From positions 147,832-211,831 of the forward strand of contig RXJR01000010.1 of assembly GCA_003963305.1 (NCBI GenBank): a DNA stretch of 64,000 nt, read 5' to 3'. Position 1 is the first letter of the stretch. Every line of letters starts with the position of its first letter. Below are positions 11,433 through 63,678 of this stretch, piece by piece. The DNA is from Candidatus Melainabacteria bacterium (lineage in GTDB: Bacteria > Cyanobacteriota > Vampirovibrionia > Obscuribacterales > Obscuribacteraceae). The position numbers and the translations under genes are program-made. The notes under the pieces are model-generated. The model searched no databases and was not told where the DNA came from. It worked only from the letters and a program-made list of their open reading frames with translations.

Positions 11433-12117
11433 GTCCGTGTGCCTGTATCTGCCACAATTGTGACAGCGATAAGAGTTCTCTTCAAGAACCGCAAGCAACA
11501 CCAGATACGGTTGCAACCTGCTGGTTGAACGCATCGGGAATTGCCTGAAACTCAGTCAGTCTCAGGGTCGAGCTCAGGGGTCTCTGCTTATGGGCCAAAA
11601 TGCCTTTAAAACTGGCAAAACAGTTAGCGCAGTTGTTTAGCTAGCGATGTGAAAGCTCTCATGACGCGCTTTACAAATAAACGAGCCCTATCTGTGAGTA
11701 GCTGCGCTATGCGCAAAAGCCGCTTGACATCACCGGCCGAGCATGAAAGCACCACCTGACAACCGACTCGATCCTATCGCAACTGAGAGGGCTGCTAAAC
11801 ATTCAACTGTTCCTGAAGCGGTTCTCTATGCCCTGATTGGCTCTCTTTGCAGGCTGGACCACTTCAGACTGAGGAAAACTTGCAGTCGCTACTCCTGTCG
11901 ACCACTTGACAAGCCTGGCTCCCTGTCGGCTTTTCATAGATCTAGTTAACTTGGATACTTCCGAGTCTTTTAACTAAGTTCTGTACGTACAGTTACTTCA
12001 CTTCTCCTCTCACCAAGCTTACTTCTACTAGCTATTTTTTCTCTCTAGGCGTCTCTCTTACTGGTTCCTGCCGGGACTGGTATAGACACACGCTCTGACG
12101 AACGGCAGGCAAAGACA
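11433..12117. other. Gene-free stretch between cdd and the first M16 peptidase
   Basis: A 685-bp region between divergent genes, relatively pyrimidine-rich near 11,990-12,060. Its right end carries a hairpin (CCTGCCG 12067-12073 with CGGCAGG 12103-12109) directly before the M16 start. No convincing gene: a 68-codon plus-strand frame at 11743-11949 has no ribosome-binding site and no protein-like pattern. Confidence 0.4.
12067..12109 (+). promoter_or_regulatory. Leader hairpin before first M16 peptidase
   Basis: CCTGCCG and CGGCAGG pair perfectly across 29 nt. The right arm contains the AGG that serves as the Shine-Dalgarno for the ATG at 12118, so pairing would hide the ribosome-binding site. 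Confidence 0.5.
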
Positions 12118-14814
12118 ATGAAAGTCACTTCAGAAGCTCTGAAGAGGCTGGGCGTGAGCTTTGTCCGTGAAACTTCGGGCATCGCTGAGTACACGCTCAC
12201 GAGCAACGGCCTCAAGATTCTCCTTCTTGAACATCACCTCGCTCCTGTTGTGACCACGACGATCATGTATCGCGTCGGTTCTCGCAACGAAGCAGTGGGT
12301 TTTACTGGCTCGACGCATTTTCTCGAGCACATGATGTTCAAGTCAACAAATGACCACGACAGCGCCAGAGGCAACGGCTTCGTGGACATGCTCAAACCGA
12401 CCGGTGCTGATTACAACGCCTACACGGGCGCCGACAGCACAAGCTATGTCATCTGCCTGCCCAGGGAAAAGCTCGGTCTGGCCCTCGCTCTCGAGGCCGA
12501 CCGCATGCGCAACCTGAAGCTGAAAGATGACGAGCGCGAGTCGGAGATGACTGTTGTGCGTAACGAATTCGAGATCGGCGAAAACGATATCGATGACGTG
12601 ATGTACAAGCAGCTCATGGCGATCGCTTACGCAGAACACCCGTACCACCACCCGATCATCGGCTGGCGAGATGATGTCGAGCAGGTCCCACTGTCTCGCA
12701 TGCAGGAGTTCTACGACACTTTCTACCACCCCAACAACGCCACGCTGGTTATAGCGGGCGACTTCGACGCGGAGCAGGCGCTGAGCCTGGTGCGAGACAG
12801 CTTCGGCAAGATTCCGAGAGCTACGCATCCGTTCCCGACCGTCTATACGCGAGAGCCGAAGCAAACGGGCGCTCGCAGCTTCGAGCTGAAGCGCGAAGGC
12901 ATGGACAATCCAAAGCTCGTGATCGGGTTCCCGACACCGGCTGCAAGTCATCCAGACCATCATGCTCTTGCTCTCGTCGCCGACTTGCTGGGTAGCGATT
13001 CGCAGACGACCAGCCGTCTCCACGCAGCACTGATTGAGCCACAGCTGGCTCTCGAGTGCAGTTCTCACGTTGCGGCATCGCGCGACCCAGACCTGTTCAT
13101 GCTGAGCGTGACGGTGAACGGGTACGACAAGATCAAGCTTGTCGAGAAAGCCATTTACGCTGAACTCGAGCGCCTCAAGCGCAGAGGTGTCGGGCAGCGC
13201 GAGATGGCACGGGTCAAGCAAGCCAACCGCAACGGCACGACCCTCCTGAGAAGCGACCCGATGAGGCACGCAGAGCAAATCTGCGAGGCCGAAGCGATCG
13301 CAGATTGGACCTGGGCTGTCGAGTACGACGACAAGTACGACGCAGTCACGAACCAGGACATCATGCGGGTGGTGCGGCAGTATCTCACCATCGACAACAG
13401 CACGACCGGCAGAAGCGCACAGCCGGACAAGAAACGCCACAAGAAGACCGCTGTCGACACCGCCAGCGATACCGGTGACAGCAACAGCAGCGAAGAGATC
13501 GAGCTGCCGGTGCCGCTTCAGCCTGAAGCCGCGTCAACCTCAGCTGTCGTCAAACCGACGGCTCTGGCGGCGAAGGTGGAGCGTTTTGTGCTCGCAAACG
13601 GTCTCAAAGTTTTGATTCTCCCCGTTCCAGATAGCGGGGTCGTCTCGGTCAGCGGAGCCATCCGCGCCGGAACAAGCCTGGCCGGCACGAACTGCATGGC
13701 GCCTGAAATAACTGCGAAGATGCTCAAAGCTGGTGCATGGGGGCTGAATAAGCGAGAAATCGCCACTCGGCTCGACAGCATCGGCTGCGATCTCAGTTTC
13801 AGCATCGACGAATTCGCCGTTACTTTCGACTCCACGTTCGCCGCCGCAGCGGTTACTGACTACTTGACTCTGCTTGGCACCGTTTTGCGGCAGCCGAGAT
13901 TCGCGCCCTCTGAACTGCGCCGGGTGAAGAGCGATACGGAGGCGGAGGCTCGCGCCAACATTGGCGAGTCTTCGACAACTGCAGGGATCAAGATCGCGCA
14001 GGCGCTCTACCCGCGCAACCACGTTTATTACCGCCAGTCCCTCAAGACTGAGCAGAAGCACGCCAAGTCCACCTCAATCAAGGAGGTGCGCCAGTTCCAC
14101 GCCGAGCACTATGTGCCACGCGGCACTGTGCTGTCGATCGTCGGAGACGTCGACCCCGCTTCGGTAAAGGAGACTCTAAACTCTGTGTTCGGTGACTGGA
14201 CAGGCGGCAAGCCCGCTCCGGTCGTCGTACCACCCGGGGAGCTCCCTGCGCAGAAGCGGCGTATCAACGTGCCGCTTTCGGGCAAGTCGAGTGTGGAGAT
14301 CATCATCGGCGTTCCAGTCAGCCTGAAGAAGGCTGACGCCGACTTCAGCGCTGCCGAGATAGCCAATGCGGCGCTCGGCATCGACACACTTTCATCCCGT
14401 CTCGGTGTGGCTGTACGCACCAAGTACGGTCTCACTTACGGGATCATGTCGTCCTTCGAAGACGTCAGGTTCGGTCATGCTCCATGGCTGATCCAGTTTT
14501 CCGTCAATCCTGCCAATGTCGAAAAGGCTCTCCGCGTGGTCGATGCAGTTGTCGAGAACTTCCTCGCCGAAGGCATCACCGAGCGTGAGCTGAAAGACGA
14601 AGCAGGTCGTTTGTACGGTCAGTACGTGGTCGCACTGCGCACCACCGCTGGCCTGGCCGCTACTCTCTGCGCTCGCGAATTCAGAGGCGCGCCTCTGCGT
14701 GACCTCGATCGTGAGTGGAAGAGGCTTCACTCGGTGACAAAAGCACAGGTCGACGAAGCGATGCGCAAGCATCTTCGATACGACAGGGCTGTCACCGTGG
14801 TCGTCGGTAAGTAA
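12118..14814 (+). CDS. M16 family zinc metallopeptidase (pitrilysin/processing-peptidase type), copy 1
   Basis: An 898-aa two-module M16 protein. The N-terminal module carries the inverted zinc motif HFLEH (His67, Glu70, His71) and the distal Glu of VVRNEFEIGEND (about residue 150), so it should be catalytic. The C-terminal module (from about residue 480, after a charged Thr/Ser-rich linker) has the M16 fold pattern including the GLTYGIMSSF block but no HxxEH. No signal peptide, so cytoplasmic unless exported by another route. It is followed after a strong hairpin by a second, closely similar M16 gene. Such proteins degrade oligopeptides or process presequence-like peptides; the substrate here is unknown. 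Confidence 0.92.
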   Translation: MKVTSEALKRLGVSFVRETSGIAEYTLTSNGLKILLLEHHLAPVVTTTIMYRVGSRNEAVGFTGSTHFLEHMMFKSTNDHDSARGNGFVDMLKPTGADYNAYTGADSTSYVICLPREKLGLALALEADRMRNLKLKDDERESEMTVVRNEFEIGENDIDDVMYKQLMAIAYAEHPYHHPIIGWRDDVEQVPLSRMQEFYDTFYHPNNATLVIAGDFDAEQALSLVRDSFGKIPRATHPFPTVYTREPKQTGARSFELKREGMDNPKLVIGFPTPAASHPDHHALALVADLLGSDSQTTSRLHAALIEPQLALECSSHVAASRDPDLFMLSVTVNGYDKIKLVEKAIYAELERLKRRGVGQREMARVKQANRNGTTLLRSDPMRHAEQICEAEAIADWTWAVEYDDKYDAVTNQDIMRVVRQYLTIDNSTTGRSAQPDKKRHKKTAVDTASDTGDSNSSEEIELPVPLQPEAASTSAVVKPTALAAKVERFVLANGLKVLILPVPDSGVVSVSGAIRAGTSLAGTNCMAPEITAKMLKAGAWGLNKREIATRLDSIGCDLSFSIDEFAVTFDSTFAAAAVTDYLTLLGTVLRQPRFAPSELRRVKSDTEAEARANIGESSTTAGIKIAQALYPRNHVYYRQSLKTEQKHAKSTSIKEVRQFHAEHYVPRGTVLSIVGDVDPASVKETLNSVFGDWTGGKPAPVVVPPGELPAQKRRINVPLSGKSSVEIIIGVPVSLKKADADFSAAEIANAALGIDTLSSRLGVAVRTKYGLTYGIMSSFEDVRFGHAPWLIQFSVNPANVEKALRVVDAVVENFLAEGITERELKDEAGRLYGQYVVALRTTAGLAATLCAREFRGAPLRDLDREWKRLHSVTKAQVDEAMRKHLRYDRAVTVVVGK

Positions 14815-14820
14815 CGCAAC

Positions 14821-14865
14821 GAGCCCGCGCGTGCTGATATCATCAACGGTCAGCACGCCGGGCTC
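14821..14865 (+). promoter_or_regulatory. Stem-loop between the two M16 genes
   Basis: GAGCCCG ... CGTGCTGA and TCAGCACG ... CGGGCTC form a two-part stem of 15 bp between the stop of copy 1 and the Shine-Dalgarno (GAAAGGA) of copy 2. No T-run follows, so partial attenuation or mRNA stabilisation is more likely than full termination. Confidence 0.65.
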
Positions 14866-14905
14866 TCATCTGAGCAAGGGGACTTCTCCCCGAAAGGAAA
14901 CTATT

Positions 14906-17551
14906 ATGTCTGACAAAATCAAAGCTCTCGGTTTCAGCAAGGTGCAGGAAGCAAAGGGCATCGTCGAGTACCGACTCGACAGCAACGGCCTCAAGGTTCT
15001 GCTCTCGGAGAACCACGCCAAGCCCGTGGTCACCTTCATGGCGCTCTTCCACGTCGGCTCGCGCAACGAGGCGGTGGGCTTCACCGGCTCCACGCACTTC
15101 CTCGAGCACCTGATGTTCAAGGGCACGCCGGCTCACAACCCGCAGGATGGCAACGGCGTCTTCGAGATGATGAAGCCGCTCGGCAACCTGCTCAACGCGA
15201 CGACCTGGTTCGATCGCACCAACTACTTCGAGTGCGTGCCGGCCGAGCATCTGCCTCTGTGCATCGAGCTCGAGGCCGACCGCATGCGCAACCTGATGCT
15301 GCGCGTCGATGACCGCAACAGCGAGATGACCGTCGTGCGCAACGAGATGGAGCGCGGCGAGAACGAGCCCGACCGGGTGATGATGGGCGAGATGTTCGCG
15401 GTCGCTTTCCGCGAGCACCCGTACCACCACCCCACCATCGGCTGGCGCTCGGACGTCGAGGGCGTGTCGCTGGAGCGCATGAAGGAGTTCTACGATGTCT
15501 TCTACTGGCCGAACAACTGCACGGTGATGGTGCGCGGCGACTTCGACACCGTCGAGGCGCTCGAGCTCATCGCCAAGCACTACGGCAAGATTCCGGCGTC
15601 GCCGCATCCGATCCCGACCGTCTACACGGTGGAGCCGCCGCAGGAAGGCGAGCGCCGCTTCGAGATCAACCGCCCCGGTGACCTGCCCCGCGTCTGGGCC
15701 GGCTTCCATATCCCCCAGGCTGCTCACGAAGACACGTATGCGCTCGCTGCCATGCGTGCCGTGCTGGGCGGCAGCGGCTCCAAGTCGAGCCGTCTCTACA
15801 AGCGCCTGATCGACTCCGGTCTGTGCGCCAGTGCGTCTGCCAGCCACATGGAGCTGCGTGACCCGGGTCTGTTCATGGTCAGCGGCACCGTCTCGGCCGA
15901 GCACAGCGTCGACGAGGTCGAGGCTGCCATGTTCGACGAGGTGGCCAAGCTGGCGGCTGAGCCGGTCACGCTCGACGAGCTCAACCGCGCCAAGAACGCC
16001 AATCGCAAGAGCACCATCCTCGGTGCGCTCGACCCGATGGGCTGGGCCAACATGATCGCCGAAGGCGAGGCTTCGGTCGACTGGAAGTGGGTGATCGAGT
16101 ACGACGACAACTTCGACAAGGTCACTCCGGCTGACGTGCAGCGCGTGGCGGCCAAGTACTTCGGTCGCAACAACCGCACGGTCGGTCACTTCATCCCCAA
16201 GAGCGAGGCGCCCGACGAGTCCGCTCCCGAGGCGGCTGAGTCGGTTCCCGCTGCCGCGGCTGAACCGGTGCAGGCCAAGACTTCGATGGCCGACTCGGTC
16301 GTCACCCGCACGCTCGCCAATGGCATCAAGGTGCAGGTGCAGTCGAACCGTGGTTCGGGCGCTGTCTCGATCAACGGCAAGCTGCGTGCCGGTGGCGTCT
16401 TCGGCGGCGGCGTCGAGCTGCTGCCCGAGCTGACGGCATTCCTGCTCACCCGGGGCTCGTCCAAGTACAGCAAGACCCAGGTGGCCGAGCTGCTTGAGGA
16501 CATGGGTCCGGGGGCTTCCCGCCTCTCCTTCAGCCCCGACACCTTCGCCGTCAGCTTCGGCGGCACGGTCGTTGCGACTGACTTCAAGCAGTACGTCGAC
16601 ATCGTCGGCGACCTGCTTCGCAACCCGCTCTTCCTCGACGAGGAAGTGGCTCGCGCCAAGCAGCAGTTCGCGTCGTTCCTGACCAAGAACGCCAACAACA
16701 CGGGACGTGTCGGACAGAACGCGCTCATGCGCGCCCTCTACGACAGCACCAGCCCATACTTCGGCAAGACTTACGCCGAGCTGGGTGACGAACTGGCCGG
16801 CATCACTGTCGACCGGATCCGTCAGTTCCACAGCGAGCACTACAGCCCCAAGAGCCTGATCATCTCCATCGTCGGTGACATCGATGCGGCCGAGGCGTTC
16901 GCCCTGGTCGAGTCGGTGTTCGGCGACTGGGATGGTGCAGAGCCCAAGCAGTGGGACGTCAGCCAGGGCATTCTGCCTGGCGGCAAGCGCAACCGCATCG
17001 ACGTGAAGATGCCGGGCAAGAAGAACACCGACATCATCATCGGCGCTCCGGTGCCGGTGGCACGCACGGCGGCCGACTTCTGCGCGGCTCGCATCGCCGA
17101 CCTGGCGCTCGGTGGCGACACCATCGGCTCGCGCCTGGGCAAGGTGGTGCGCGTCAAGCACGGTCTCACCTACGGCATCAACAGCCACTACGACGACATC
17201 AGCTTCGGCAACGCGCCCTGGCTGATCACGCTCACCGTCAACCCCGAGAACATCGACAAGGCCCTCGGTCTGGTCGACGAGGTGGTGGAGGAGTTCCTGA
17301 CCGAGGGCATCTCGGATCGCGAGATGTCTGACCTGACCGAGCAGGCCGCGGCCGGCTTCCAGGTCGGGCTGCGCACCGATGCCGCCGTGGCCGGTGTGCT
17401 CAGCCAGTTCACCTTCCTCGGGCTGCCGCTCAGCGAGCTGGACAACTACCCCCAGCGCGTCAAGTCGGTGACCAAAGAAGAGGTCAACGAGGCGATCCGC
17501 AAGTACCTGCGCCTCGACGGGGCGACGACGGTGGTTTGCGGCACTTTCTGA
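14906..17551 (+). CDS. M16 family zinc metallopeptidase, copy 2
   Basis: An 881-aa paralogue of the preceding gene, colinear over its whole length (SNGLKVLLSENHAKPVVTF against SNGLKILLLEHHLAPVVTT; identical GSTHFLEH). The zinc site is His64, Glu67 and His68, with the distal Glu in VVRNEMERGENE. The C-terminal module again lacks HxxEH. AAAGG lies nine bases before the ATG at 14906. Codon choice is much more G/C-ending than in copy 1, suggesting higher expression or different age. Two active-site-bearing copies in tandem may form a heteromer as in mitochondrial or bacterial M16 pairs, but in classic pairs one subunit has lost the zinc site; here neither has. Confidence 0.92.
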   Translation: MSDKIKALGFSKVQEAKGIVEYRLDSNGLKVLLSENHAKPVVTFMALFHVGSRNEAVGFTGSTHFLEHLMFKGTPAHNPQDGNGVFEMMKPLGNLLNATTWFDRTNYFECVPAEHLPLCIELEADRMRNLMLRVDDRNSEMTVVRNEMERGENEPDRVMMGEMFAVAFREHPYHHPTIGWRSDVEGVSLERMKEFYDVFYWPNNCTVMVRGDFDTVEALELIAKHYGKIPASPHPIPTVYTVEPPQEGERRFEINRPGDLPRVWAGFHIPQAAHEDTYALAAMRAVLGGSGSKSSRLYKRLIDSGLCASASASHMELRDPGLFMVSGTVSAEHSVDEVEAAMFDEVAKLAAEPVTLDELNRAKNANRKSTILGALDPMGWANMIAEGEASVDWKWVIEYDDNFDKVTPADVQRVAAKYFGRNNRTVGHFIPKSEAPDESAPEAAESVPAAAAEPVQAKTSMADSVVTRTLANGIKVQVQSNRGSGAVSINGKLRAGGVFGGGVELLPELTAFLLTRGSSKYSKTQVAELLEDMGPGASRLSFSPDTFAVSFGGTVVATDFKQYVDIVGDLLRNPLFLDEEVARAKQQFASFLTKNANNTGRVGQNALMRALYDSTSPYFGKTYAELGDELAGITVDRIRQFHSEHYSPKSLIISIVGDIDAAEAFALVESVFGDWDGAEPKQWDVSQGILPGGKRNRIDVKMPGKKNTDIIIGAPVPVARTAADFCAARIADLALGGDTIGSRLGKVVRVKHGLTYGINSHYDDISFGNAPWLITLTVNPENIDKALGLVDEVVEEFLTEGISDREMSDLTEQAAAGFQVGLRTDAAVAGVLSQFTFLGLPLSELDNYPQRVKSVTKEEVNEAIRKYLRLDGATTVVCGTF

Positions 17552-17640
17552 TCCGCCGATTCAAGCACAAGTAGACCAGCGGCGCCATATTGCGGCGGTG
17601 CAGGTCTGCAATGACATAAGTTCGCTGGACTTAAGCGAGG

Positions 17641-17672
17641 GGCTCGTGCAGAAATGCACGGGCCTTTCGTTT
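17641..17672 (+). terminator. Hairpin terminator after M16 copy 2
   Basis: GGCTCGTGCA and TGCACGGGCC pair around a GAAA tetraloop (one G-U pair) and are followed by TTTCGTTT. This is the usual shape of a moderate intrinsic terminator, 90 bases after the stop. Confidence 0.65.
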
Positions 17673-17685
17673 AGCAGAAGACATC

Positions 17686-18215: not shown

Positions 18216-18245
18216 GGGAGACGCAGCCTCACAACCGCGTCTCCC
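18216..18245 (+). promoter_or_regulatory. Leader stem-loop of the Pro-aminopeptidase gene
   Basis: GGGAGACGC and GCGTCTCCC form a perfect 9-bp stem with a 12-nt loop. It ends immediately before the Shine-Dalgarno GAAAGG of the gene starting at 18260. Confidence 0.65.
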
Positions 18246-19654: not shown

Positions 19655-19673
19655 CTCGGCTGCAATCTCAAGG

Positions 19674-19704
19674 GGGCGGTCGGACTCGAGAGAGCCGACC
19701 GCCT
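19674..19704 (+). terminator. Hairpin after pepP
   Basis: GGGCGGTCGG and CCGACCGCCT form a 9-10 bp GC-rich stem 20 bases after the stop. The following sequence, CTTACG, is only weakly T-rich. Confidence 0.5.
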
Positions 19705-19815
19705 CTTACGAGACTGAGCCCCCGGGTCACTATCAGCACCACGGGAATCTAAACTTAACCACTTCACTCGCTGCGCTCTGCGTCTAAGAGTGGCTGATTC
19801 TCAGGATTTCCGCCT

Positions 19816-54123: not shown

Positions 54124-54145
54124 GCATAATTCCTCTTGAAGGAAA

Positions 54146-54174: not shown

Positions 54175-54201
54175 AGCTGGTGAATGAACGGACAGAGAGC
54201 C

Positions 54202-54231
54202 GGCAACTCCCGATAGAAAGCGGGTGTTGCC
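54202..54231 (-). promoter_or_regulatory. Post-stop stem after the 44-aa gene
   Basis: GGCAAC-T-CCCG and CGGG-T-GTTGCC pair with a single T-T mismatch, 20 bases beyond the stop at 54251. Confidence 0.55.
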
Positions 54232-54250
54232 AGCTACCTGAGTGAACGGG

Positions 54251-54385: not shown

Positions 54386-54405
54386 TGAAGTTCTCCGTTT
54401 GCCTG

Positions 54406-55101: not shown

Positions 55102-55263
55102 GATATTTACCGTAAATGTGTTTTGCTGGAGAGACTTGAAAGCGCCCCCGCGCAAAATTTAGAAAGCACGCACCGAGTTTTGGTTCGATACGCTCCGTGA
55201 AGCAGCACTGCAGATGCACGCATCACCAGCGCCGATCTGGCGCCGGAGATGCTGGCACAAGCA

Positions 55264-55380
55264 GCGCCCCTGAAAGGGACGCCGGTGATGTTGCCACCAC
55301 CAGCGCCACTAAACACAACGCCCGTGTTGTTGCCATCACGAACGCCACTAAACACAACGCCCGTGTTGTTGCCATCACGA
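55264..55380 (-). repeat. 39-bp tandem repeat, two perfect copies and one degenerate copy
   Basis: Copies at 55303-55341 and 55342-55380 differ only at their first base; 55264-55302 is a degenerate copy of equal length. The unit contains ACACAACGCCCGTGTTGTT, which can fold on itself. Because 39 is divisible by three, several frames stay open. One is the frame of the sedolisin gene, continuing past its TGA with a 13-residue repeat (NNTGVVFSGVRDG). Confidence 0.9.
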
Positions 55381-55400
55381 GCAGTGCTACAGCAGACGAC

Positions 55401-57047
55401 TCAGGAGCCGCTGCTGCCGCTCATCTTGGGGAAGTAGCCGTAGACGAGCGAGCCACCGCCGACCGGGACGTTGATCTTGTCTTTGGGATCGGCCTTGTAG
55501 TCGCCGTTGCTGCCCGGCTCGGTCACCATCTCGAGCAAGCCCTTGTCGAGGTGCCCGTAGATGAAGGCGATCGGGTCGGTGACGACCAGGCCCTTGTCCT
55601 CGAGAGCCTTGAACATCTTCGCCATCTTGATGCCGATAGCCGGCGCCGCATGGCTCGTGCCGCCGACCTTGGACGAACGGTTCTGGTAGCGCACATTGGG
55701 TCCGCACTCGGGCGCCGCCACGTCAGCCACGAGCGAAGCGCTGTGCCCGGCTTTGCCGGTGCTGGCCGAGACCGGCAGCCCCAGCCCGACCTCCTCCTTC
55801 ATGGGCGGGAAGAGATCAGAGATGCCACCGCCGGTGTCGCTCCAGACGTAGCGGCTCGTCACCGTCTTGCCGTCACGGGAGCGGATGCCGATGCCGGCGG
55901 CGCCGATGATGTTCGGCACCGAGGACGGTGCGTCGGCAACGGCCTTGGGCGTGTTGTCGCGCGAGCCATTGTCGCCCGTGGCGGCAGTGACGATCATGCC
56001 CTTGAGACGAGCCGCCGCGGCCGCTTTCTCCCAGCGCAGCAGCGACTGCTGCGTGAAGTTGGACTCGGCCATGCCCCAGCTGATCGTGTAAGCGCGCAGC
56101 TTGAGCAGGCGCCCGTCCCTGGTCTGAACGCCCTTGAAGGCGACTGCCGCTTCGATCGCCTGGATGAAGGCGTCGTCGGAATTGTCGGCGCGGAAGATGA
56201 CGCAGTAGCCGTTGGGATTGAGCAGCACGTGCGCCTGCAGATCGAGAGCATTCTCGACCGTGGCGCCGTCGGCGTAGCCCGAAGCGCCACCATCGAGCGG
56301 CGTGCCGTCGACCGAGTTGCCGATCACAGGAGCGGCGGCGATGCCTTCCTGTTTGGCGACGTAGGCCGCATCGGCGAGAAGCCGCGGACCGTTGTCACCG
56401 CCGAGGCTGACGAAGCCGGTGACGACATCTTCCACCTTGTCCATGGCGGCGACATCGAAGCCTTGCAGCCGGGCCAGCCCGCGCGACGTCAGACCAGACG
56501 GGATGGCGCTGGGCTCGACCGCCGAGCCGGCGAAGCGCAGGTTGACATGCGCGATGTCGCGCGTGTCGAGACCGTAGACGCCGATGATCGGCAGCCCGGG
56601 CTTGACGGTGATGTGGCCTTCGCGTCCGACGAACTTGCCGCCCTTCGCATCGACGAAGTGGGAGAGCTCGATGCCGGGCAGGAAGCGCCGGGCTGCGGCG
56701 TAGGTGCCCTGCACACGCTGGATGCCGAACATCTTGTCGGCGTCGGTGCGGGGCAGGAGCGTCAGACCGTGCTCGCGAGCAGCCTTGCGAACGCGGCGCA
56801 GATGCGACTTGCGCTCGCCGAAGAGAGCGGTCAGCTCGTCGTTGGTGAGGTGCGGGCGGGCGCCGCGCGAGACCTTCTCCTGCAGCCGGGCGATGTCATC
56901 GCGGCTCGCAAGAGACGACATCTCGAGCGAGAAGCGCACCTGCTTGTTGCCGGCCAGCTCACGCACACGGGTGCCCGACGGTGCCGGCTTGAAGCTTGAG
57001 GTGAGAGCGACCACGGCAGCGGCGGTGGCCTTGTTGGACTTGGACAT
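55401..57047 (-). CDS. Sedolisin (S53) serine-carboxyl peptidase with pro-domain
   Basis: A 548-aa acid-type peptidase homologue. The N-terminal about 130 residues form a kumamolisin-like pro-domain (VRFSLEMSSLASRDDIARLQ; HLTNDELTALFG). The catalytic domain has VENALDLQAHVLLN (Glu and Asp of the triad), TISWGMAESNFTQQ, VTAATGDNGSRDN (oxyanion Asp) and GGTSHAAPAIGIKMA (catalytic Ser), ending with a calcium-site-like NGDYKADPKDKINVP. There is no obvious signal peptide. GGAG lies about nine bases before the ATG at 57047. After the TGA the frame stays open for 97 more codons through a 39-bp repeat. Confidence 0.9.
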   Translation of the reverse strand: MSKSNKATAAAVVALTSSFKPAPSGTRVRELAGNKQVRFSLEMSSLASRDDIARLQEKVSRGARPHLTNDELTALFGERKSHLRRVRKAAREHGLTLLPRTDADKMFGIQRVQGTYAAARRFLPGIELSHFVDAKGGKFVGREGHITVKPGLPIIGVYGLDTRDIAHVNLRFAGSAVEPSAIPSGLTSRGLARLQGFDVAAMDKVEDVVTGFVSLGGDNGPRLLADAAYVAKQEGIAAAPVIGNSVDGTPLDGGASGYADGATVENALDLQAHVLLNPNGYCVIFRADNSDDAFIQAIEAAVAFKGVQTRDGRLLKLRAYTISWGMAESNFTQQSLLRWEKAAAAARLKGMIVTAATGDNGSRDNTPKAVADAPSSVPNIIGAAGIGIRSRDGKTVTSRYVWSDTGGGISDLFPPMKEEVGLGLPVSASTGKAGHSASLVADVAAPECGPNVRYQNRSSKVGGTSHAAPAIGIKMAKMFKALEDKGLVVTDPIAFIYGHLDKGLLEMVTEPGSNGDYKADPKDKINVPVGGGSLVYGYFPKMSGSSGS

Positions 57048-57069
57048 TGGTGATATCTCCACGTTGTTA

Positions 57070-57095
57070 ACCTGGCAGCGTGATTGCCACCAGGT
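57070..57095 (-). promoter_or_regulatory. Leader stem before the sedolisin gene
   Basis: ACCTGGCA (57070-57077) and TGCCA-cc-AGGT pair with a 2-nt bulge; on the minus strand the Shine-Dalgarno begins about ten bases later. Confidence 0.5.
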
Positions 57096-57167
57096 CTCGA
57101 AGGAAAACTGCGAAATTGAGGACAAGCGGCGGGGCGCTAACCTTTCAGAAAGCGCCAGACTGCCCGG

Positions 57168-57605
57168 TCAGACTGCCCGGGCATGGAAGTTGGGGTTGGC
57201 GGCGCGGAAGCCGTCGGCGAGAACCGACATCATGGCGATGGCGTCGAGCTTCTGCATGAGCCCTTCCGCCATTTCGATCATGTCCTCGGCCGAATCGAGC
57301 AGAGCATCGCGCTCTTCTTCGGTCTGGCACAGCGCCACGTCGGCGAAAGTGCCCTTCACACGAACGAAGGGATAGCGCTTGATGCCTGCGCTGATTGAAC
57401 CGAGCGCCGAGCTGGCGAACATGTTCGCCGAGAACGGATCGGCGTCAGCCTCGTATCCCGTCTGCACGATATGGTCGGTGAGAAAGATGACAGACAAGGC
57501 TCGTTGCGCGAGCTGATCCACATCGTCAGTCTTGCGTCCACGGAAGTGGTTGACGACGTCAGCGAGTTCGGTGAGCAGGATCGAGTCGCGGTTGGTCTTG
57601 GTCAT
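57168..57605 (-). CDS. Hypothetical protein, 145 aa (paralogue of the 57.7-kb gene)
   Basis: A soluble helical protein. It shares with its neighbour (57731-58204) the pattern ADVVNHFRGRKTDDVDQLAQ / CDVVKHFRNREIDDLDRLVQ, then R..SV.. and a YPF.R block. The pair arose by tandem duplication. GAGGAG lies nine bases before the ATG. Function unknown; both lie upstream of the sedolisin gene on the same strand. Confidence 0.7.
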   Translation of the reverse strand: MTKTNRDSILLTELADVVNHFRGRKTDDVDQLAQRALSVIFLTDHIVQTGYEADADPFSANMFASSALGSISAGIKRYPFVRVKGTFADVALCQTEEERDALLDSAEDMIEMAEGLMQKLDAIAMMSVLADGFRAANPNFHARAV

Positions 57606-57623
57606 TTACTTATTCTCCTCACA

Positions 57624-57670
57624 TGCACCAGATGCGGTGCACAATGCAACGACAGATGCCAGGCATCTGT
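57624..57670 (-). promoter_or_regulatory. GCACC-N6-GGTGC element and adjacent palindrome
   Basis: TGCACC-AGATGC-GGTGCA (57624-57641) lies about 20 bases before the start of the 145-aa gene. ACAGATGCC-A-GGCATCTGT (57652-57670) is a second, near-perfect dyad with 9-bp arms. Confidence 0.7.
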
Positions 57671-57730
57671 ACGGACAGCAGACGGCTGGCAGAATCGCCG
57701 GCCGCCTTTGATTGCTTCGGTGGCAGTAGT

Positions 57731-58204
57731 TCAGCCCTGGTGTCGGCCGGTCTGGGCAGGGCTGTTGTAGACGAGCACTTCGCCCGCATAGAACGCGTTC
57801 AGGCTGACATCGACAGGCGCTGCGGTCGAGACCGGGTCGACACCGCCGCAGTTCGACGGAGCAGGCTCCTGCACGAGCTGCTCGGCCATGCCGATCAGCC
57901 CCTGCACATGACCGAGCAAGCTCGGGTCGGCGAGCGTGACCACCTGTTCGGCATCACGAAGGAACGGGTAAGTCCTGAAACTGCGACCGACTATGGTGAG
58001 CGCCTCATCGGCGTACATCTCGGCGAGCGCCGCAGAGGAGAGGAAGTCGCCCTGCGAACGGGGCTTACCTCTCGTTCTGAGAAGAACCGAAACGCCTCGC
58101 TGCACGAGCCGATCCAGGTCGTCGATCTCCCGGTTGCGGAAGTGTTTGACGACATCGCAGAAGTTGCCGCGCAGAACCGAGTCGGCGTGATTGGTCGAGG
58201 ACAT
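57731..58204 (-). CDS. Hypothetical protein, 157 aa (paralogue of the 57.2-kb gene)
   Basis: Paralogue of the next gene downstream (same DVVKHFR / DDLDRLVQR core, followed by FRTYPFLRD). Its C-terminal 35 residues differ. The ATG at 58204 has GGAG six bases upstream; an ATG four codons earlier is too close to any Shine-Dalgarno. No signal peptide or TM. Function unknown. Confidence 0.65.
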   Translation of the reverse strand: MSSTNHADSVLRGNFCDVVKHFRNREIDDLDRLVQRGVSVLLRTRGKPRSQGDFLSSAALAEMYADEALTIVGRSFRTYPFLRDAEQVVTLADPSLLGHVQGLIGMAEQLVQEPAPSNCGGVDPVSTAAPVDVSLNAFYAGEVLVYNSPAQTGRHQG

Positions 58205-58223
58205 GTGAAGCTCCATGCCTTAT

Positions 58224-58311
58224 GCACCAGATGCGGTGCGGGGTGTCGTGACTGTCGATACCGGCGCATCGACGGGTGAAGACTTACCAGCATTCGACTC
58301 GCCGGAGTCTT
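58224..58311 (-). promoter_or_regulatory. GCACC-N6-GGTGC element and post-stop stem
   Basis: GCACC-AGATGC-GGTGC (58224-58239) stands 20 bases before the start of the 157-aa gene. AAGACT (58279-58284) and AGTCTT (58306-58311) bracket a GC-rich loop after the preceding gene's stop. Confidence 0.6.
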
Positions 58312-58333
58312 AAGCTGGGCCAAGGTGGCAGAC

Positions 58334-58780
58334 TTACGCAGATTTGCCGGAGTCGTTGCCGGTGCTGCCGTCGCCGTGCATACCAAACGGGTCCTTCGGA
58401 TCGAAGGGACCGTGCTGGCGAGCCGCACGAGCGAATGCACCGACGAAACGCAGCGAGCCACGTGCGGCGCTGCCGAGCACCGGGCCGATGATGCCCCAGA
58501 GGGGCGGTCCGACCCAGACTATGATGACGCTCATGAGCGCCAGCATCACACCACGAATGGTGCCAAGCGCGGCGGCGGGCTTGATCTGTTGCAGCACGGT
58601 GTGCACCGTGCTCATGTCTGGCATCTTGGTCCAGTCGACGATGCCGTTGAAGGAGTTGTTGCAGCACTGCACGACGCTGTAGAGCAGCACGCAGAATGCC
58701 ACCTTGACGAGATTGCGGGGGCTGTTGAGGGGCGGGTCGTTCTGGTCGTCGGGACTCTTGGGGTTGGTTGCGTTGGACAT
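58334..58780 (-). CDS. Hypothetical membrane protein, paralogue of the 20.4-kb gene
   Basis: A 148-aa protein sharing NLVKVA, VLLYS.VQC, NGIVDWTK.PD, TVHTV, LGTIRG and GP.LWGIIGPVL with the gene at 20395-20847. It has the same two-hydrophobic-segment layout and Asp/Pro-rich ends (DPKDPFGMHGDGSTGNDSG). Starting at the ATG at 58780 (GGAGG nine bases upstream) removes a long, unlikely N-terminal extension. Confidence 0.75.
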   Translation of the reverse strand: MSNATNPKSPDDQNDPPLNSPRNLVKVAFCVLLYSVVQCCNNSFNGIVDWTKMPDMSTVHTVLQQIKPAAALGTIRGVMLALMSVIIVWVGPPLWGIIGPVLGSAARGSLRFVGAFARAARQHGPFDPKDPFGMHGDGSTGNDSGKSA

Positions 58781-58794
58781 TGGTCTATCCTCCG

Positions 58795-58814
58795 GTGCCT
58801 GCAGGCAGGCACCA
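58795..58814 (-). promoter_or_regulatory. Perfect 9-bp leader stem
   Basis: GGTGCCTGC-AG-GCAGGCACC directly precedes the Shine-Dalgarno GGAGG of the gene starting at 58780. Confidence 0.7.
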
Positions 58815-58866
58815 TTCGGGGTTGACGAGCGGCGGATGCCGCCCGAGAGAAGCGGTGTCACCACAA

Positions 58867-58998
58867 TCAGTGGCGGTACCGGCGCAAGCGGAACCAGCGG
58901 CGACGGGGTCGATACTCCATCGACCTGCCGCAGGTGCACATGAGAACAACGATGATCAGCACCAGGAAGGCACAGAAGAGATTTTTGATGAGCTGCAT
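58867..58998 (-). CDS. Small single-TM protein, 43 aa
   Basis: A candidate short gene: an N-terminal hydrophobic helix (LIKNLFCAFLVLIIVVLMCT) with three cysteines, followed by a strongly basic tail (EYRPRRRWFRLRRYRH). GGAAA precedes the ATG at 58998 by six bases. The hydrophobic-then-basic layout suggests an inner-membrane protein with a cytoplasmic tail. Supported only by layout and ribosome-binding site. Confidence 0.45.
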   Translation of the reverse strand: MQLIKNLFCAFLVLIIVVLMCTCGRSMEYRPRRRWFRLRRYRH

Positions 58999-59446
58999 GG
59001 ATGTTTCCGGTTGTGCTGCAACTGAGTTGACACCTCTTGCTGCTCCTCGTATCAAACCAGCCACCCGGGGCAGCCAGCAATCATGAGGACCCGACAAGAG
59101 ATGCAGCGGAGACGCCGTCTGTCTATCGAGGCGTTAGACAAAAGTCATCTTCGATGGTCAGACACGCCAGTCGGCGACTGACGTAAGTAAATCCAGATAC
59201 TTGCAGGAGTGCTGTTTCTTAGCTCTTTTCGGAAATGAAAACTGATGGATGAATACTTAGAGATTTACCAGTATCTAAATGGTGATCTCATCACAAGTTT
59301 TGTATAGACGAGCACTTTACAACGCTTAACCGCTAGCCCTGTTAGCATTCGCACACGCTGTAAAGAGCCTCGCACACTGTCGCGAGTGCAGGTAAATCCA
59401 ACCTGCGACTCTCCAAGATTGCCTGAAACCCTGACTGATGCTCTAT
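58999..59446. other. Gene-free stretch with stem-loops
   Basis: GTCAG...CGCC-AGTC-GGCG...CTGAC (59157-59182) and CTCGC-ACACTGTC-GCGAG (59369-59386) are visible dyads. The part around 59,200-59,320 is AT-rich. No gene seen. Confidence 0.4.
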
Positions 59447-59992
59447 CTACATAGACTTAGCGGAGCTTTCAGCGAGCTTTTTGACCATGCTTAGATTGCG
59501 CTTAGAACGGTGACTGACGATGCCGTTTGTAATCATTCGCGGCAAAGAAATATTCGGCTCGACATAAGTAGACAGCGAGAGCTTTGTGTGGCCTTCCTCG
59601 GTAGGAGTGAGAATCCAACTTCCTTCCATCGCTTTCAAATCTTCAGATGAGATAAGTTTGAAATCTACTCGCTGAGCTGCTGTTTCATTAAGGTGCAATA
59701 TGCATTCGGCATTGCCAAACGGCGAAGGAAAAATGAACTTCTGCTCTACTACAGGCTCACCGTTCTCGCTGGCCGACTTGATGTAAGCAGAATCCGGATC
59801 TATCTTGCGCTGTTCGAGCATACTTCTCCAGACAATTTTAGGTGGTGCCTTGATCAGGACTTCTTCATGCACACCGTTCTTATGCGCCTTGCCCACTGCC
59901 GTATGTTCGGCCCGAACAGGCTGCATCACCGGCACTGACACCGTTGAAAGAACGAGTGCCGCAGCAACAATTATTCTTGTCTTTATGCTCAC
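59447..59992 (-). CDS. Secreted SRPBCC (START-like) domain protein
   Basis: A 181-aa protein with a signal peptide (IIVAAALVLSTVSVPVMQPV) and a domain resembling the SRPBCC helix-grip fold. It begins EEVLIKAPPKIVWRSMLEQR, continues with strands GEPVVEQKFIF, ECILHLNET and RVDFKLISSED, then a GSWILTPTEEGHTKLSLST strand, and ends in a long helix. The fold binds hydrophobic ligands. The GTG at 59992 has GGAG eight bases upstream; an in-frame TTG nine codons earlier has no such site. Ligand unknown. Confidence 0.75.
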   Translation of the reverse strand: MSIKTRIIVAAALVLSTVSVPVMQPVRAEHTAVGKAHKNGVHEEVLIKAPPKIVWRSMLEQRKIDPDSAYIKSASENGEPVVEQKFIFPSPFGNAECILHLNETAAQRVDFKLISSEDLKAMEGSWILTPTEEGHTKLSLSTYVEPNISLPRMITNGIVSHRSKRNLSMVKKLAESSAKSM

Positions 59993-60279
59993 ACCAATAG
60001 CTCCATGAGAGGCCGGCAATTATAAATAACTCGCGATAGGTAGCACATTACATATTGCCAAGGTGTACGTTGCCAAGAAGCGCAGGCGGTTGTTTATTGA
60101 CTCTGCAGATTGCTAATTCTAAGAAGTCACGTTTCATTACTTTCAACAGCCAACAAAACCTGTAAGTACCTTCAGCTTCTTTCGAGAACGTCTTTCTTCT
60201 CTGCGTTAGCAGGGTGGATGTTTCTCGACTATCTGGCGCCACCAATTCAGGTGTGCGTCGCTTTGTCGGAGTCACTCTC

Positions 60280-61500
60280 ATGGACAAACTCATCGGACTA
60301 CTAGGCATCGCCGTCATCATCGGCATCGCCGTGCTTCTCTCCAACAACCGAAAAGCGATCAAGTGGCGCCCGGTTGTTGTTGGTCTCGCCTTCAACTTCA
60401 TCGCCGCCCTGCTCATTCTCAAAGTGCCGATCACACGCCAGGCTTTCGAGGCGGTCGGACAGGGCATCAACAAGCTGCTCGAATTTGCTGTCGACGGCGC
60501 GGCGGGAATCTTCGGCGACAAGCTGGCCCGTGGCGAATTCATCTTCGCTATCAGGGTCGGCTCTTCGATCATTCTCATCGCCGCCCTCTCGTCACTGGCA
60601 TACTACCTGGGCATCATGCAGCGCATCGTCAAGCTCCTCGCCCGAGGACTGATGCGCACCATGGGCATCACCGGACCGGAAGCGCTCTCAAGCGTTGCCG
60701 CGGTTTTCGTCGGTCAGGTGGAGTGTCAGTTTCTGATCAAGCCGTATCTGAAGCGGCTGAGCAGCTCTGAACTCTTCACATCGATCGCCGCTGCCATGGC
60801 GACTATTTCCGGATCGGCCCTGGTCGCTTACACGGCTCTGGGCATGAATCCGGTCTGGCTGCTGTCAGCCTCGATCATGTCGATATTCGCCGGCATCGCG
60901 ATCGCCAAGATCCTCTGCCCGGAAACGGAGCAGAAGGCACTCACGGGCGAGGTGGTTCTCGACATCGAGAACAAACCTGTGAACGCCTTTGATGCCATCG
61001 CCCACGGTGCAATGGACGGTGCCAAAATCGCCGTCAACGTGATGGTGATGGTGCTGGTCGGTATCGCCATGGTGGCGATGATCAACTTCTTGATCGCCAT
61101 TCCGCTGCACTGGTTCGGTGTCAGCTGGCAGATCCAGGACATGCTCGGCGTGTTGCTCACACCGCTGGCCTGGCTGCTCGGCGTGCCCGCGCACGAGGCC
61201 TTCCACGTGGCACGCCTGATGGCTACCGAAATCTTCGTCAACGAGTTCGTCGCTTACGGAGAGCTCAGCCAGGTCATCCACGGACACGGCGCCTACGTCT
61301 TGAGCGAACGCACACAGCTGATTGCGACGGCAGCGCTGTGCGGCTTTGCCAACCTCGGCTCGATCGCCATCAACATCGGCGGTCTGGGCGCGATGGCTCC
61401 CGACAGACGCGGTGAAATCGCCAAGATCGGCTTGAAGTGCCTGGTCGCGGCGAATCTGGCCACATGGATCACAGCCGCTACCTGCGGACTTTTCATGTAG
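60280..61500 (+). CDS. nupC: Concentrative nucleoside transporter (NupC/CNT family)
   Basis: Symports nucleosides with protons or Na+ across the inner membrane. The 406-aa protein has about eight to ten TM helices and the CNT signature blocks VFVGQVECQFLIKPYL, ATISGSALVAYTALGM, ALTGEVVLDIENKPVNAFDA and the conserved NEFVAYGELSQ with TAALCGFANLGSIAINIGGL. The ATG at 60280 has GGAG eight bases upstream; longer in-frame starts are unsupported. It stands alone on the plus strand, with a strong terminator behind it. It may feed the salvage pathway that includes the cytidine deaminase at 11 kb (inference). Confidence 0.94.
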   Translation: MDKLIGLLGIAVIIGIAVLLSNNRKAIKWRPVVVGLAFNFIAALLILKVPITRQAFEAVGQGINKLLEFAVDGAAGIFGDKLARGEFIFAIRVGSSIILIAALSSLAYYLGIMQRIVKLLARGLMRTMGITGPEALSSVAAVFVGQVECQFLIKPYLKRLSSSELFTSIAAAMATISGSALVAYTALGMNPVWLLSASIMSIFAGIAIAKILCPETEQKALTGEVVLDIENKPVNAFDAIAHGAMDGAKIAVNVMVMVLVGIAMVAMINFLIAIPLHWFGVSWQIQDMLGVLLTPLAWLLGVPAHEAFHVARLMATEIFVNEFVAYGELSQVIHGHGAYVLSERTQLIATAALCGFANLGSIAINIGGLGAMAPDRRGEIAKIGLKCLVAANLATWITAATCGLFM

Positions 61501-61526
61501 ACCACCGCGCTTGACTGACTTTCGAG

Positions 61527-61578
61527 AGCGGCAGGGTAGATCGTTGAAAAACGACACTCCCTGCCGCTTTCGCTTTTA
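61527..61578 (+). terminator. Intrinsic terminator of nupC
   Basis: AGCGGCAGGG (61527-61536) pairs with CCCTGCCGCT (61559-61568), with an inner TCGTT/AACGA stem; TTCGCTTTTA follows. Confidence 0.85.
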
Positions 61579-61676
61579 TCCCACCCTACTATACTATAGA
61601 ATAGCTTGCGATAAAAATGAAAACTGTTAAAAGCCGGTCCCTTTCAGCAAATCGATGGTTATCCAACCTGAATGCG

Positions 61677-61711
61677 ACCGGCGAAAGCAGCAAAGAGCCG
61701 CGTTCGCCGGT
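61677..61711 (-). terminator. Hairpin after the 119-aa membrane protein gene
   Basis: ACCGGCGAA and TTCGCCGGT form a perfect 9-bp stem 26 bases beyond the minus-strand stop. No T-run. Confidence 0.5.
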
Positions 61712-61736
61712 CCTTCATGCCTTACAGCTCGGACGC

Positions 61737-62096
61737 CTAGGTCTCAGGACCAAGAAGGCGGTAGCCGAAGCCGTTGATGACACCAATCACGAGCACGCCC
61801 CCCGTCACGAGCAAGACATCGAAGGCAGACAGCACAGCCGAGATCTTGTAGCTGACGGCGAGAAAAGCAATAATGCCACCGAAGACGACTCCGGTCGCGA
61901 TCACACCGCCCAGGATGGGACGGCTGGAGCCGAAAGCAGCGATGAGACCGCCGATGACGGCGCCCAGAACGAGACCGACGACGGCAGCTGCCTGTAGGTG
62001 CGGGTTCAGTCCGTAGGCGATGATGTTGAAGATCAATTCGGCGATGGAGCAGGCCAGAGCACTGCCCAGGACGCCAGTCAGTTTGTTCTTTTGCAT
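61737..62096 (-). CDS. Four-TM membrane protein, 119 aa
   Basis: Hydrophobic segments at about residues 8-30, 36-58, 62-84 and 88-112, Gly-rich (LVLGAVIGGLIAAFG; LGGVIATGVVFGGIIAFLAV), as in small membrane proteins of the TIGR04086/YrzE type; the family is not certain. AAGG precedes the ATG by eight bases. Transcribed away from its upstream neighbour after a long structured leader. Confidence 0.65.
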   Translation of the reverse strand: MQKNKLTGVLGSALACSIAELIFNIIAYGLNPHLQAAAVVGLVLGAVIGGLIAAFGSSRPILGGVIATGVVFGGIIAFLAVSYKISAVLSAFDVLLVTGGVLVIGVINGFGYRLLGPET

Positions 62097-62186
62097 GCAC
62101 GTACCTTCTTTCTAATCGGCACTTAGCACGATTTGTTGAATTGAGATTTGAATATTGGTCACAAGCAAAGGCACTAACGGCAGGCA

Positions 62187-62220
62187 GGCGATGCTCAGCA
62201 CAAGCGTGCTCAACATCGCC
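62187..62220 (-). promoter_or_regulatory. Interrupted stem between the DUF4870 gene and the next gene
   Basis: GGCGATG and CATCGCC form the outer stem, and AGCAC-AAGC-GTGCT the inner stem with tetraloop. Confidence 0.6.
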
Positions 62221-62275
62221 CACCGGTCTTGTCAGTCAGCGTCGCGAGCAGTTCTCGTTTGCTGCGCCGCCGTCG

Positions 62276-62629
62276 TCATCGGATGATCCGGATGGTGAGC
62301 GGATAGCGATAGGCCGTGCCACCGCCGGCAGTGATGGCGGCGATGATGGGCAGAATGAAGCCCAGAACGCCGACCGCGATGAGCATGGGAATGCCGATGA
62401 TGAAGAAGCACAGCAGCGCCGAAACGATCGCCCAGAAGACCAGGTTGATCTGGAAGTTGAGCACCTCTTTGGCCTGGTCCTTGACGAAGGGCGAGTCCGA
62501 GATGAGCATGATGACCAGCGGCACGAAGATGTTGCAGAGGATGGAGGTGGCCAGAAGCGAGACCAGATGGCAGATGACAGCCAGGGTTCGCTCCTCGCCG
62601 GTGGTGTTGCTGAGATTGGTTGCAGACAT
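62276..62629 (-). CDS. DUF4870 (Tic20-like) membrane protein
   Basis: A 117-aa protein with three to four TM helices and the DUF4870 pattern: ERTLAVICHLVSLLATSILC, VPLVIMLISDSPFVKDQAKE, VLNFQINLVFWAIVSALLCF, ending in a Gly/Ala/Tyr stretch (ITAGGGTAYRYPLTIRII). GAGGAC lies five to six bases before the ATG. Role unknown in this family. Confidence 0.87.
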   Translation of the reverse strand: MSATNLSNTTGEERTLAVICHLVSLLATSILCNIFVPLVIMLISDSPFVKDQAKEVLNFQINLVFWAIVSALLCFFIIGIPMLIAVGVLGFILPIIAAITAGGGTAYRYPLTIRIIR

Positions 62630-62650
62630 GTTGTCCTCTCTTAAAAGTCC

Positions 62651-62765
62651 AGCTGAAGTTGTTCAGCTCAAATGTGCATTGACATGACGAGCAAACCCGC
62701 TTGTGAAGCAGGTGCCCGAAGGTGGCCAGGCTGACGGAGAGGGAGCGGCTGAAGTGCTCCCTCTC
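62651..62765 (-). promoter_or_regulatory. Leader tetraloop hairpin and post-stop hairpin
   Basis: AGCTGAA-GTTG-TTCAGCT (62651-62668) is a perfect 7-bp stem before the DUF4870 gene. GAGAGGGAGC (62737-62746) and GCTCCCTCTC (62756-62765) form a perfect 10-bp stem after the preceding gene's stop at 62776. Confidence 0.65.
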
Positions 62766-62775
62766 TGTCCATGAA

Positions 62776-63132
62776 TCAAACTGCGGCAAGCTCCCTGTCG
62801 CTCCAGAGCGACTTCGGAACCGGCTTGCCATGCTGGTCGCGCAGAGCGATGCAGTAGCAGGGTCCACCCGACTCCATCACTTCCTGCACGTACTCCTCCA
62901 GCACGGTACCGTTGGCCAGCGTGTAGCGATGCAAATCGCCGGCGAACAGCTTGTAGCGCGCACGCACACGGCTGTACACGCGTTTCTCGACACAGGCGAC
63001 CCGACGAACACGGTCGAAAGGCACTTCCTTCCCACCGGCGCGGATCTCCTTGCCGACTTCGTGCACCAGCTTGGTGCGATTGACCTTGCGACGAGCCCAC
63101 TGGTTGAGCCCTTTGAACTGGTCCATTCTCAT
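62776..63132 (-). CDS. Hypothetical basic protein, 118 aa
   Basis: A soluble, Arg/Lys-rich protein (LNQWARRKVNRTKLVHEVGK; RRVACVEKRVYSRVRARYKL) with two nearby cysteines (GPCYCIALRDQ). It could bind nucleic acid, but no named fold is recognised. GAGGA precedes the ATG by seven to eight bases. Confidence 0.6.
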   Translation of the reverse strand: MRMDQFKGLNQWARRKVNRTKLVHEVGKEIRAGGKEVPFDRVRRVACVEKRVYSRVRARYKLFAGDLHRYTLANGTVLEEYVQEVMESGGPCYCIALRDQHGKPVPKSLWSDRELAAV

Positions 63133-63164
63133 AGCAATTTCCTCTTTGTCTTTGAGTGATTACA

Positions 63165-63256
63165 GGGTGCTGGAACACCCGTTTCAGAAGCAGGCCAACG
63201 TGGGCATTGAGCTCGACGTTGGGTGAGCGAGAGGCAATGCCTGGCACCGCCTCTCG
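63165..63256 (-). promoter_or_regulatory. Cluster of three stems between two small genes
   Basis: GGGTG-CTGGAA-CACCC (63165-63180), CCAACGT with ACGTTGG (63195-63222) and CGAGAGGC with GCCTCTCG (63228-63256). Confidence 0.6.
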
Positions 63257-63296
63257 AGAAGTTTCAAGACCCTGAGGTCGTGACCGAGGCTGAGCC

Positions 63297-63629
63297 TCAG
63301 TAGTAGAGGTCGTGCAAACGACCGAAGATGCGCTCGACTTCAGGCGCTCGCGAACCGAGTGCCTTCTCCATGACGCACAGCGCCTCGCCCAGCACTTCAC
63401 GCGCCTGGTCGAGGCTGTTCATGGCCGTCAGGATGGTGCCGAGGTCTTCCAGGCAGTAGCCGTAAGCACGGCTGTCTTTGCCGATGTGCTCAGCGGCGAG
63501 CGCCAGCGCTTCACGACAGATGCGTTCAGCGGCGATGTAGTCCTTCTTCCGCCATTCGCTCGTGGCACTGTCGAGAAGGGCAGCGACGCGGGAAGCGTAG
63601 CTGGTCTCAGGGATGTTCGGATTCGTCAT
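63297..63629 (-). CDS. Small TPR protein, 110 aa
   Basis: Two TPRs of the kinesin-light-chain style (KKDYIAAERICREALALAAE; SLDQAREVLGEALCVMEKAL) separated by YGYCLEDLGTILTAM. No signal peptide, so cytoplasmic adaptor. GGAG precedes the ATG by five to six bases. Confidence 0.8.
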   Translation of the reverse strand: MTNPNIPETSYASRVAALLDSATSEWRKKDYIAAERICREALALAAEHIGKDSRAYGYCLEDLGTILTAMNSLDQAREVLGEALCVMEKALGSRAPEVERIFGRLHDLYY

Positions 63630-63662
63630 TCAGACTCCGTTGCAGTTGATGGGTTCGTCGGA

Positions 63663-63678
63663 GCACCAATCAAGGTGC
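63663..63678 (-). promoter_or_regulatory. GCACC-N6-GGTGC leader element
   Basis: GCACC-AATCAA-GGTGC, 33 bases before the start of the small TPR gene. Confidence 0.55.

Follow-up and report, generated by a model that had tools for sequence, protein, structure and literature searches.

The window analyzed here is a stretch of 64,000 nucleotides (nt), positions 147,832 to 211,831 of contig C10 of G000, a 7.48-Mb Melainabacteria/Vampirovibrionia-type metagenome-assembled genome (MAG; 44 contigs, 95% complete) whose source organism is a non-photosynthetic relative of the cyanobacteria. Genes in G000 are of two kinds, those with a third-position GC content (GC3) of 0.75-0.98, which we call class 1, and ordinary genes with GC3 near 0.52, and the gaps that touch class-1 genes in the window contain numerous hairpins, listed below with their strands. 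All 15 of the stems named in an earlier reading of this DNA (the original prediction) were found, and at a score cut-off of at least 22, at least one hairpin is present in 27 of the 38 gaps that are at least 50 nt long and touch a class-1 gene. Gene calling relied on a home-made caller based on a codon model, the uncertainty of start codons being the main technical caveat, and approximately 1 Mb of the G000 genome was read piecewise. For comparison we used G002 (same genus), G053 (another genus) and G054 (the counterpart of G053, ~12% divergent overall).

14821-14866, plus strand: 3' hairpin behind the M16 peptidase gene that ends at 14814, with a perfect core at 14829-14858.
17571-17673, plus strand: two hairpins (17571-17609 and 17632-17673) past the M16 gene ending at 17551.
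18216-18245, plus strand: hairpin 14 nt ahead of the M24 aminopeptidase start; one of the 5'-proximal minority.
19671-19707, plus strand: 3' hairpin, 16 nt past the M24 peptidase stop.
20863-20940, plus strand: two hairpins past the gene ending at 20847.
26410-26440, minus strand: 3' hairpin, 12 nt past the stop of the sigma-70-family gene 26453-27307.
30688-30713, minus strand: 3' hairpin with 11-bp arms, 14 nt past the stop of gene 30728-31024.
31053-31074, minus strand: 3' hairpin, 14 nt past the stop of gene 31089-32345.
32380-32407, minus strand: 3' hairpin immediately past the stop of gene 32408-33655.
33684-33715, minus strand: 3' stem past the stop of the S41 peptidase gene 33726-35384; under the score cut-off, clear in the fold, outer limits approximate.
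35433-35460, minus strand: hairpin between genes 33726-35384 and 35515-36606, 54 nt past the stop.
37755-37789, minus strand: 3' hairpin, 12 nt past the stop of the MoxR-type AAA gene 37802-39031; the tight gaps (11-14 nt) of the same operon have no hairpin.
43721-43753, plus strand: 3' hairpin, 30 nt past the stop at 43690.
45109-45150, plus strand: 3' hairpin with arms of ~19, 40 nt past the acyl-CoA dehydrogenase stop.
45571-45602, plus strand: 3' hairpin, 31 nt past the stop at 45539.
46306-46338, plus strand: 3' hairpin in a convergent gap, 14 nt past the stop at 46291.
54193-54240, minus strand: strong hairpin 10 nt past the upstream called stop, in a gap (54124-54250) flanked by class-1 genes.
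57625-57640, unstranded: 16-bp dyad GCACCAGATGCGGTGC, which lies upstream of 57168-57605 and is an operator-like motif found repeatedly rather than a unique hairpin.
57657-57691, minus strand: 3' hairpin, 39 nt past the stop of gene 57731-58204.
58794-58813, minus strand: hairpin 13 nt ahead of the start of gene 58334-58780; one of the 5'-proximal minority.
61676-61712, minus strand: 3' hairpin in a convergent gap, 24 nt past the stop of gene 61737-62096.
62183-62224, minus strand: 3' hairpin with arms of ~19, 51 nt past the stop of gene 62276-62629.
62733-62769, minus strand: 3' hairpin, 6 nt past the stop of gene 62776-63126.
63228-63256, minus strand: 3' hairpin, 40 nt past the stop of gene 63297-63629.

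Compared with dinucleotide shuffles, class-1 gaps are clearly enriched in pairing (best inverted repeat 7.7 vs. 5.1 expected), and ordinary gaps are barely above expectation (5.8 vs. 5.2). Folding gave the same picture, with 81-100% of class-1 tandem gaps of at least 90 nt reaching z<-2 compared with 7-26% of ordinary ones, and the excess rises with gap length. As the original prediction held, therefore, the stems are a property of one gene class. It had also described each stem as having its own sequence, and among the 87 class-1 hairpins of G000 only one pair has a 12-mer in common, which removes repetitive extragenic palindromic (REP) sequences and miniature inverted-repeat transposable elements (MITEs) as candidates and agrees with recognition by shape rather than by sequence, since sequences are unique and pairing is kept. 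No Rfam family matched within the window at curated thresholds.

The position assigned to the stems, ahead of start codons, was correct for four of the 15 (18216, 57624, 58795 and 62651); the other 11 belong to the preceding stop codon, ~0-40 nt away. Divergent gaps, in which both flanking ends are 5' ends, and convergent gaps, in which both are 3' ends, separate the two anchors. Strict stems occur at 1 of 21 and 0 of 20 class-1 5' ends in the divergent gaps of two genomes, while 65-100% of convergent gaps with a class-1 end contain a hairpin, and several convergent gaps of G053 contain two, one close to each stop. Across unambiguous gaps, hairpin coverage peaks at 40-53% at 30-60 nt past class-1 stops and is at most 10% in any bin ahead of class-1 starts. 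Hairpin presence goes with the upstream gene's class and not with the downstream gene's: z<-2 was reached in 67-71% of gaps that follow a class-1 gene, regardless of the next gene, compared with 19-29% after an ordinary gene, and the mixed pairs differ accordingly (67% for class-1 then ordinary, 26% for ordinary then class-1). The distance from stop to hairpin in G000 has a median of 22-25 nt and typically ranges from 10 to 50 nt, and tight operon gaps, such as those of 11-14 nt in the MoxR/VWA run, lack hairpins. These data indicate that the stems belong mainly to the 3' end of the gene before them rather than to the leader of the gene after them; most of the apparent stems before starts are stems past the previous stop in short tandem gaps.

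The hairpins are under selection for pairing, as RNA. Between orthologous class-1 3' hairpins of G053 (contig C5) and G054, the arms diverge by 6.6%, the flanks by 17.7% and the loops by 30.1% (p=1.6e-16), whereas in control stems taken from coding sequence the arms diverge about as much as the loops. The same comparison shows 445 of 465 base pairs retained and 14 of 15 altered G-U pairs still paired. Compensatory double changes, a predicted signature of such selection, do exist, but they are few, and G-U changes in the orthologous stems outnumber A-C changes as expected (13 vs. 8), though not significantly (p=0.38). The hairpin at 14821, past the first M16 gene, can be folded in G002 through wobble pairs and paired changes (alignment read by eye). 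Two strand biases point to RNA: the sense strand at class-1 3' ends folds better than the antisense strand by -2.6 kcal/mol (p=2e-6), and among the tetraloops of class-1 hairpins, pooled from two genomes, 12 are of the GNRA/UUCG type compared with 2 of the antisense equivalents.

The element at class-1 3' ends is a GC-rich stem-loop past the stop and specific to the upstream gene, as expected of a terminator, but the U-tract of the canonical form is mostly missing in G000, where TTTT follows within 12 nt in 6 of 68 tandem and 6 of 19 convergent class-1 hairpins (p=0.02 for the difference between the two). Stable hairpins within ~100 nt past the stop and without a U-trail define the I-shaped (U-less) type, to which most of the G000 hairpins would be assigned. 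A scan of positions 44001-64000 for stems with T-rich tails gave no excess over shuffles (14 vs. 16.8), as would be expected if the hairpins have no U-tracts. The original prediction was correct about the scarcity of T-runs, but it went too far in setting the stems apart from ordinary terminators. In G053, TTTT lies within 12 nt of 14 of 38 tandem and 7 of 13 convergent class-1 hairpins, and the T fraction past the hairpins is 0.43-0.56 compared with a background of 0.24-0.31, indicating that class-1 hairpins and intrinsic terminators form a continuum; even in G000 there is a slight rise past tandem hairpins (0.30 vs. 0.24, p=2e-4). The RNA-binding domain of Rho (PF07497) was found in none of 50 family genomes, in a search that was positive in 9 of 14 control genomes. 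Rho is absent from cyanobacteria as well. Where Rho is not found, transcripts would be expected to be ended or protected by a hairpin right past the stop, and for the same reason we rejected Rho-dependent ends that are trimmed back to the hairpin.

We therefore consider it probable that the 3'-end hairpins serve as U-poor intrinsic terminators of modest efficiency, as blocks to 3' exonucleases, or as both, for class-1 transcription units. Each class-1 gene or tight operon would be followed by its own hairpin of 9-20 bp, which would halt RNA polymerase in the manner of a long-stem, U-poor intrinsic terminator, and the resulting 3' end would bar 3'-5' exonucleases; selection would act on pairing only, leaving the hairpin sequences all different. 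The mRNA protection or processing proposed originally is a plausible part of this model, although its anchor on the 5' side was not borne out. Several points weigh against the model: the scarcity of U-tracts in G000 (TTTT in 6 of 68 tandem hairpins), the disputed status of U-less termination in general, and the gaps of 60-70 nt (31025-31088 and 32346-32407) that leave little room for a promoter past the hairpin, so that these hairpins would be leaky or intra-operonic. In addition, the U-less hairpins of Synechococcus sp. PCC 7002 are not associated with long half-lives (PMC7406221).

The chief rival, which we regard as unlikely, is that the hairpins do not terminate at all and are barriers or processing signals, REP-like but without a shared sequence, that give polycistronic class-1 mRNAs stable internal 3' ends, with termination occurring elsewhere by an unknown mechanism, as has been proposed for cyanobacteria. 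The missing U-tracts, the occurrence of hairpins in the 60-70-nt gaps of same-strand runs and the lower frequency of TTTT in tandem than in convergent gaps all fit such a role, and high GC3 would also fit long-lived mRNA. Synechococcus transcription units, moreover, mostly end non-canonically, with only about one-fifth appearing canonical (PMC13289151). Opposing this are the T enrichment past tandem class-1 hairpins of G053, the strong presence of hairpins in convergent gaps and the lack of any in tight operon gaps.

The principal interpretation of the original prediction was that of leader stems with a role in translational control or in protecting the mRNA downstream. For the bulk of the hairpins this is very improbable, such leaders being refuted as the main element by the near-absence of strong stems from divergent gaps, with coverage of 0-10% ahead of class-1 starts and a peak of 30-53% past class-1 stops, and by the dependence on upstream gene class. 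A smaller signal is nevertheless present on the 5' side: class-1 5' ends fold slightly beyond shuffles (z of -0.9 to -1.0, with z<-2 in 21-22% compared with 6-9% for ordinary genes), single stems lie 13-14 nt ahead of starts (18216 and 58795), and a few stems on the Shine-Dalgarno side, such as TTTCC..GGAAA, are kept in G053 and G054. The 5' ends of class-1 genes in tandem gaps showed no difference in folding between sense and antisense strands. A weaker, separate minority of 5' leader stems is thus real and may be functional, and translational control fits this minority of stems near starts.

Elements that operate as DNA, whether attC-like recombination sites, REP/MITE insertions or protein-binding dyads, are largely excluded and have the least chance of explaining the hairpins, given the unique sequences, the lack of flanking RYYYAAC ... 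GTTRRRY core sites at any of the 87 hairpins (which rejects integron attC sites) and the strand asymmetries in folding and tetraloops, even though a truly repeated dyad is present in some gaps. This 16-bp dyad, GCACCNNATNNGGTGC, accounts for several of the small stems near starts; it occurs at 57 sites genome-wide (0 for a reversed-pattern control) and in the window at 17686, 39993, 43764, 57625 and 58224, near genes of both classes, and is strongly concentrated in gaps. A looser pattern, GCACYNNATNNRGTGC, is ~8-fold denser in gaps than in genes. The dyad looks like the operator of a putative regulator, separate from the hairpins.

The gene class itself is the more surprising part of these observations, as it is kept across genera, is interleaved with ordinary genes and lacks upstream sigma-70 -10 boxes. 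GC3 is bimodal in G000, with a majority at 0.50-0.55 and the second set at 0.75-0.98, and class-1 genes prefer the codons TTC, AAG, CAG and ATC, with TTA and CTA nearly unused. Ordinary expression bias does not explain this preference, and class 1 is not a set of translation-optimized, highly expressed genes, because EF-Tu, EF-G, S12 and S7 are all encoded by ordinary genes (GC3 0.54-0.61). Class-1 genes are restricted to parts of contigs C10, C8 and C7 and small pieces of C2, where they form same-strand runs with ordinary genes interleaved, and the class is present again in G053, on contig C5. The 43 reciprocal-best pairs between C10 and that contig are collinear (rho 0.70) with the classes interleaved, and 40 of the 43 retain their class, which argues against a chimeric contig or recent gene transfer. 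About a dozen further family genomes also have M16 peptidase copies with high GC3. In the window, two fused M16 peptidase genes lie in tandem at 12118-17551, and family genomes contain many paralogs of both the ordinary and the high-GC3 kind. Two small class-1 proteins, encoded at 20395-20847 and 58334-58780, are alike by eye (NLVKVA...Y..VQC.....F..IVDWTK) and have no Pfam match. At 50243-54123, a 947-aa protein of the animal-haem-peroxidase type adjoins one of 325 aa that matched nothing in Pfam or NCBIfam.

Upstream sequences also differ between the classes. TA[TA]AAT is enriched upstream of ordinary genes in G000, whereas it occurs in none of 210 sequences upstream of class-1 genes in G000 and G053 (~4.6 expected from shuffles). 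A search for a spaced two-box promoter of class-1 genes yielded no clear motif; in the upstream regions of both genomes, TCAACC alone showed a strand-specific enrichment, namely on the sense strand. A different type of promoter for class-1 genes is possible. The minus-strand gene at 26453-27307 encodes a divergent sigma-70-family factor that scores under the NCBIfam equivalog cut-offs. Its only other relative at E 1e-55 is inside G000 and contains one in-frame TAG, so a family-wide role as the class-1 sigma factor is unsupported.

Together, codon usage, promoter content and 3' ends co-vary across this split and are kept across genera, and neither expression-level codon bias nor recent transfer accounts for it. 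We tentatively suggest that two compartments with different expression grammar have existed side by side since before the genera split: an ordinary one, with GC3 of ~52%, TATAAT-type promoters and few 3' hairpins, and a class-1 one, with GC3 of 75-98%, no TA[TA]AAT and near-universal U-poor 3' hairpins, possibly served by a different holoenzyme or giving long-lived mRNA.

For the question of how transcripts end in Rho-less cyanobacteria and their non-photosynthetic relatives, a genome in which class-1 genes have clear, selected 3' structure and ordinary neighbours mostly do not has a built-in control, against which termination by U-poor hairpins, protection by them, or both could be judged. 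A Melainabacteria co-culture with a diatom, with a draft genome of 7.6 Mb, has been reported (PMC10868163). The element resembles an intrinsic terminator or a 3' barrier, and we do not class it as a canonical terminator because of its missing U-tract. Like intrinsic (Rho-independent, L-shaped) terminators, the class-1 hairpins are GC-rich, gene-specific in sequence, located soon past the stop, present twice in some convergent gaps and nearly absent from divergent gaps; unlike them, they mostly lack a U-tract in G000 (it is partly present in G053) and serve one codon-usage class only. They share the absence of a U-trail downstream of genes with I-shaped terminators (the WebGeSTer class, discussed for PCC 7002; PMC7406221), but here, where activity is putative, the type is partitioned by gene class within one genome. 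REP/RIP 3'-stabilizing hairpins likewise lack a U-tract, and class-1 hairpins could block exonucleases as they do, yet REP elements share sequence and class-1 hairpins do not, and Rho was not found here. Mimivirus genes each finish with a palindrome able to form a hairpin, whose shape is the signal (PMC4402537), but that system is unrelated and depends on viral cleavage and polyadenylation machinery, of which there is no indication here, so the likeness is an analogy only. Synechococcus elongatus, of the same broad phylum and also Rho-less, has few canonical terminators, but its non-canonical ends are mostly unstructured (PMC13289151), whereas class-1 ends are strongly structured. We found no published description of class-partitioned hairpins in the limited collection of literature searched; relative to the systems above, what is new is that, inside a single Rho-less genome, the hairpins are divided according to gene class, together with the deep conservation of that class.

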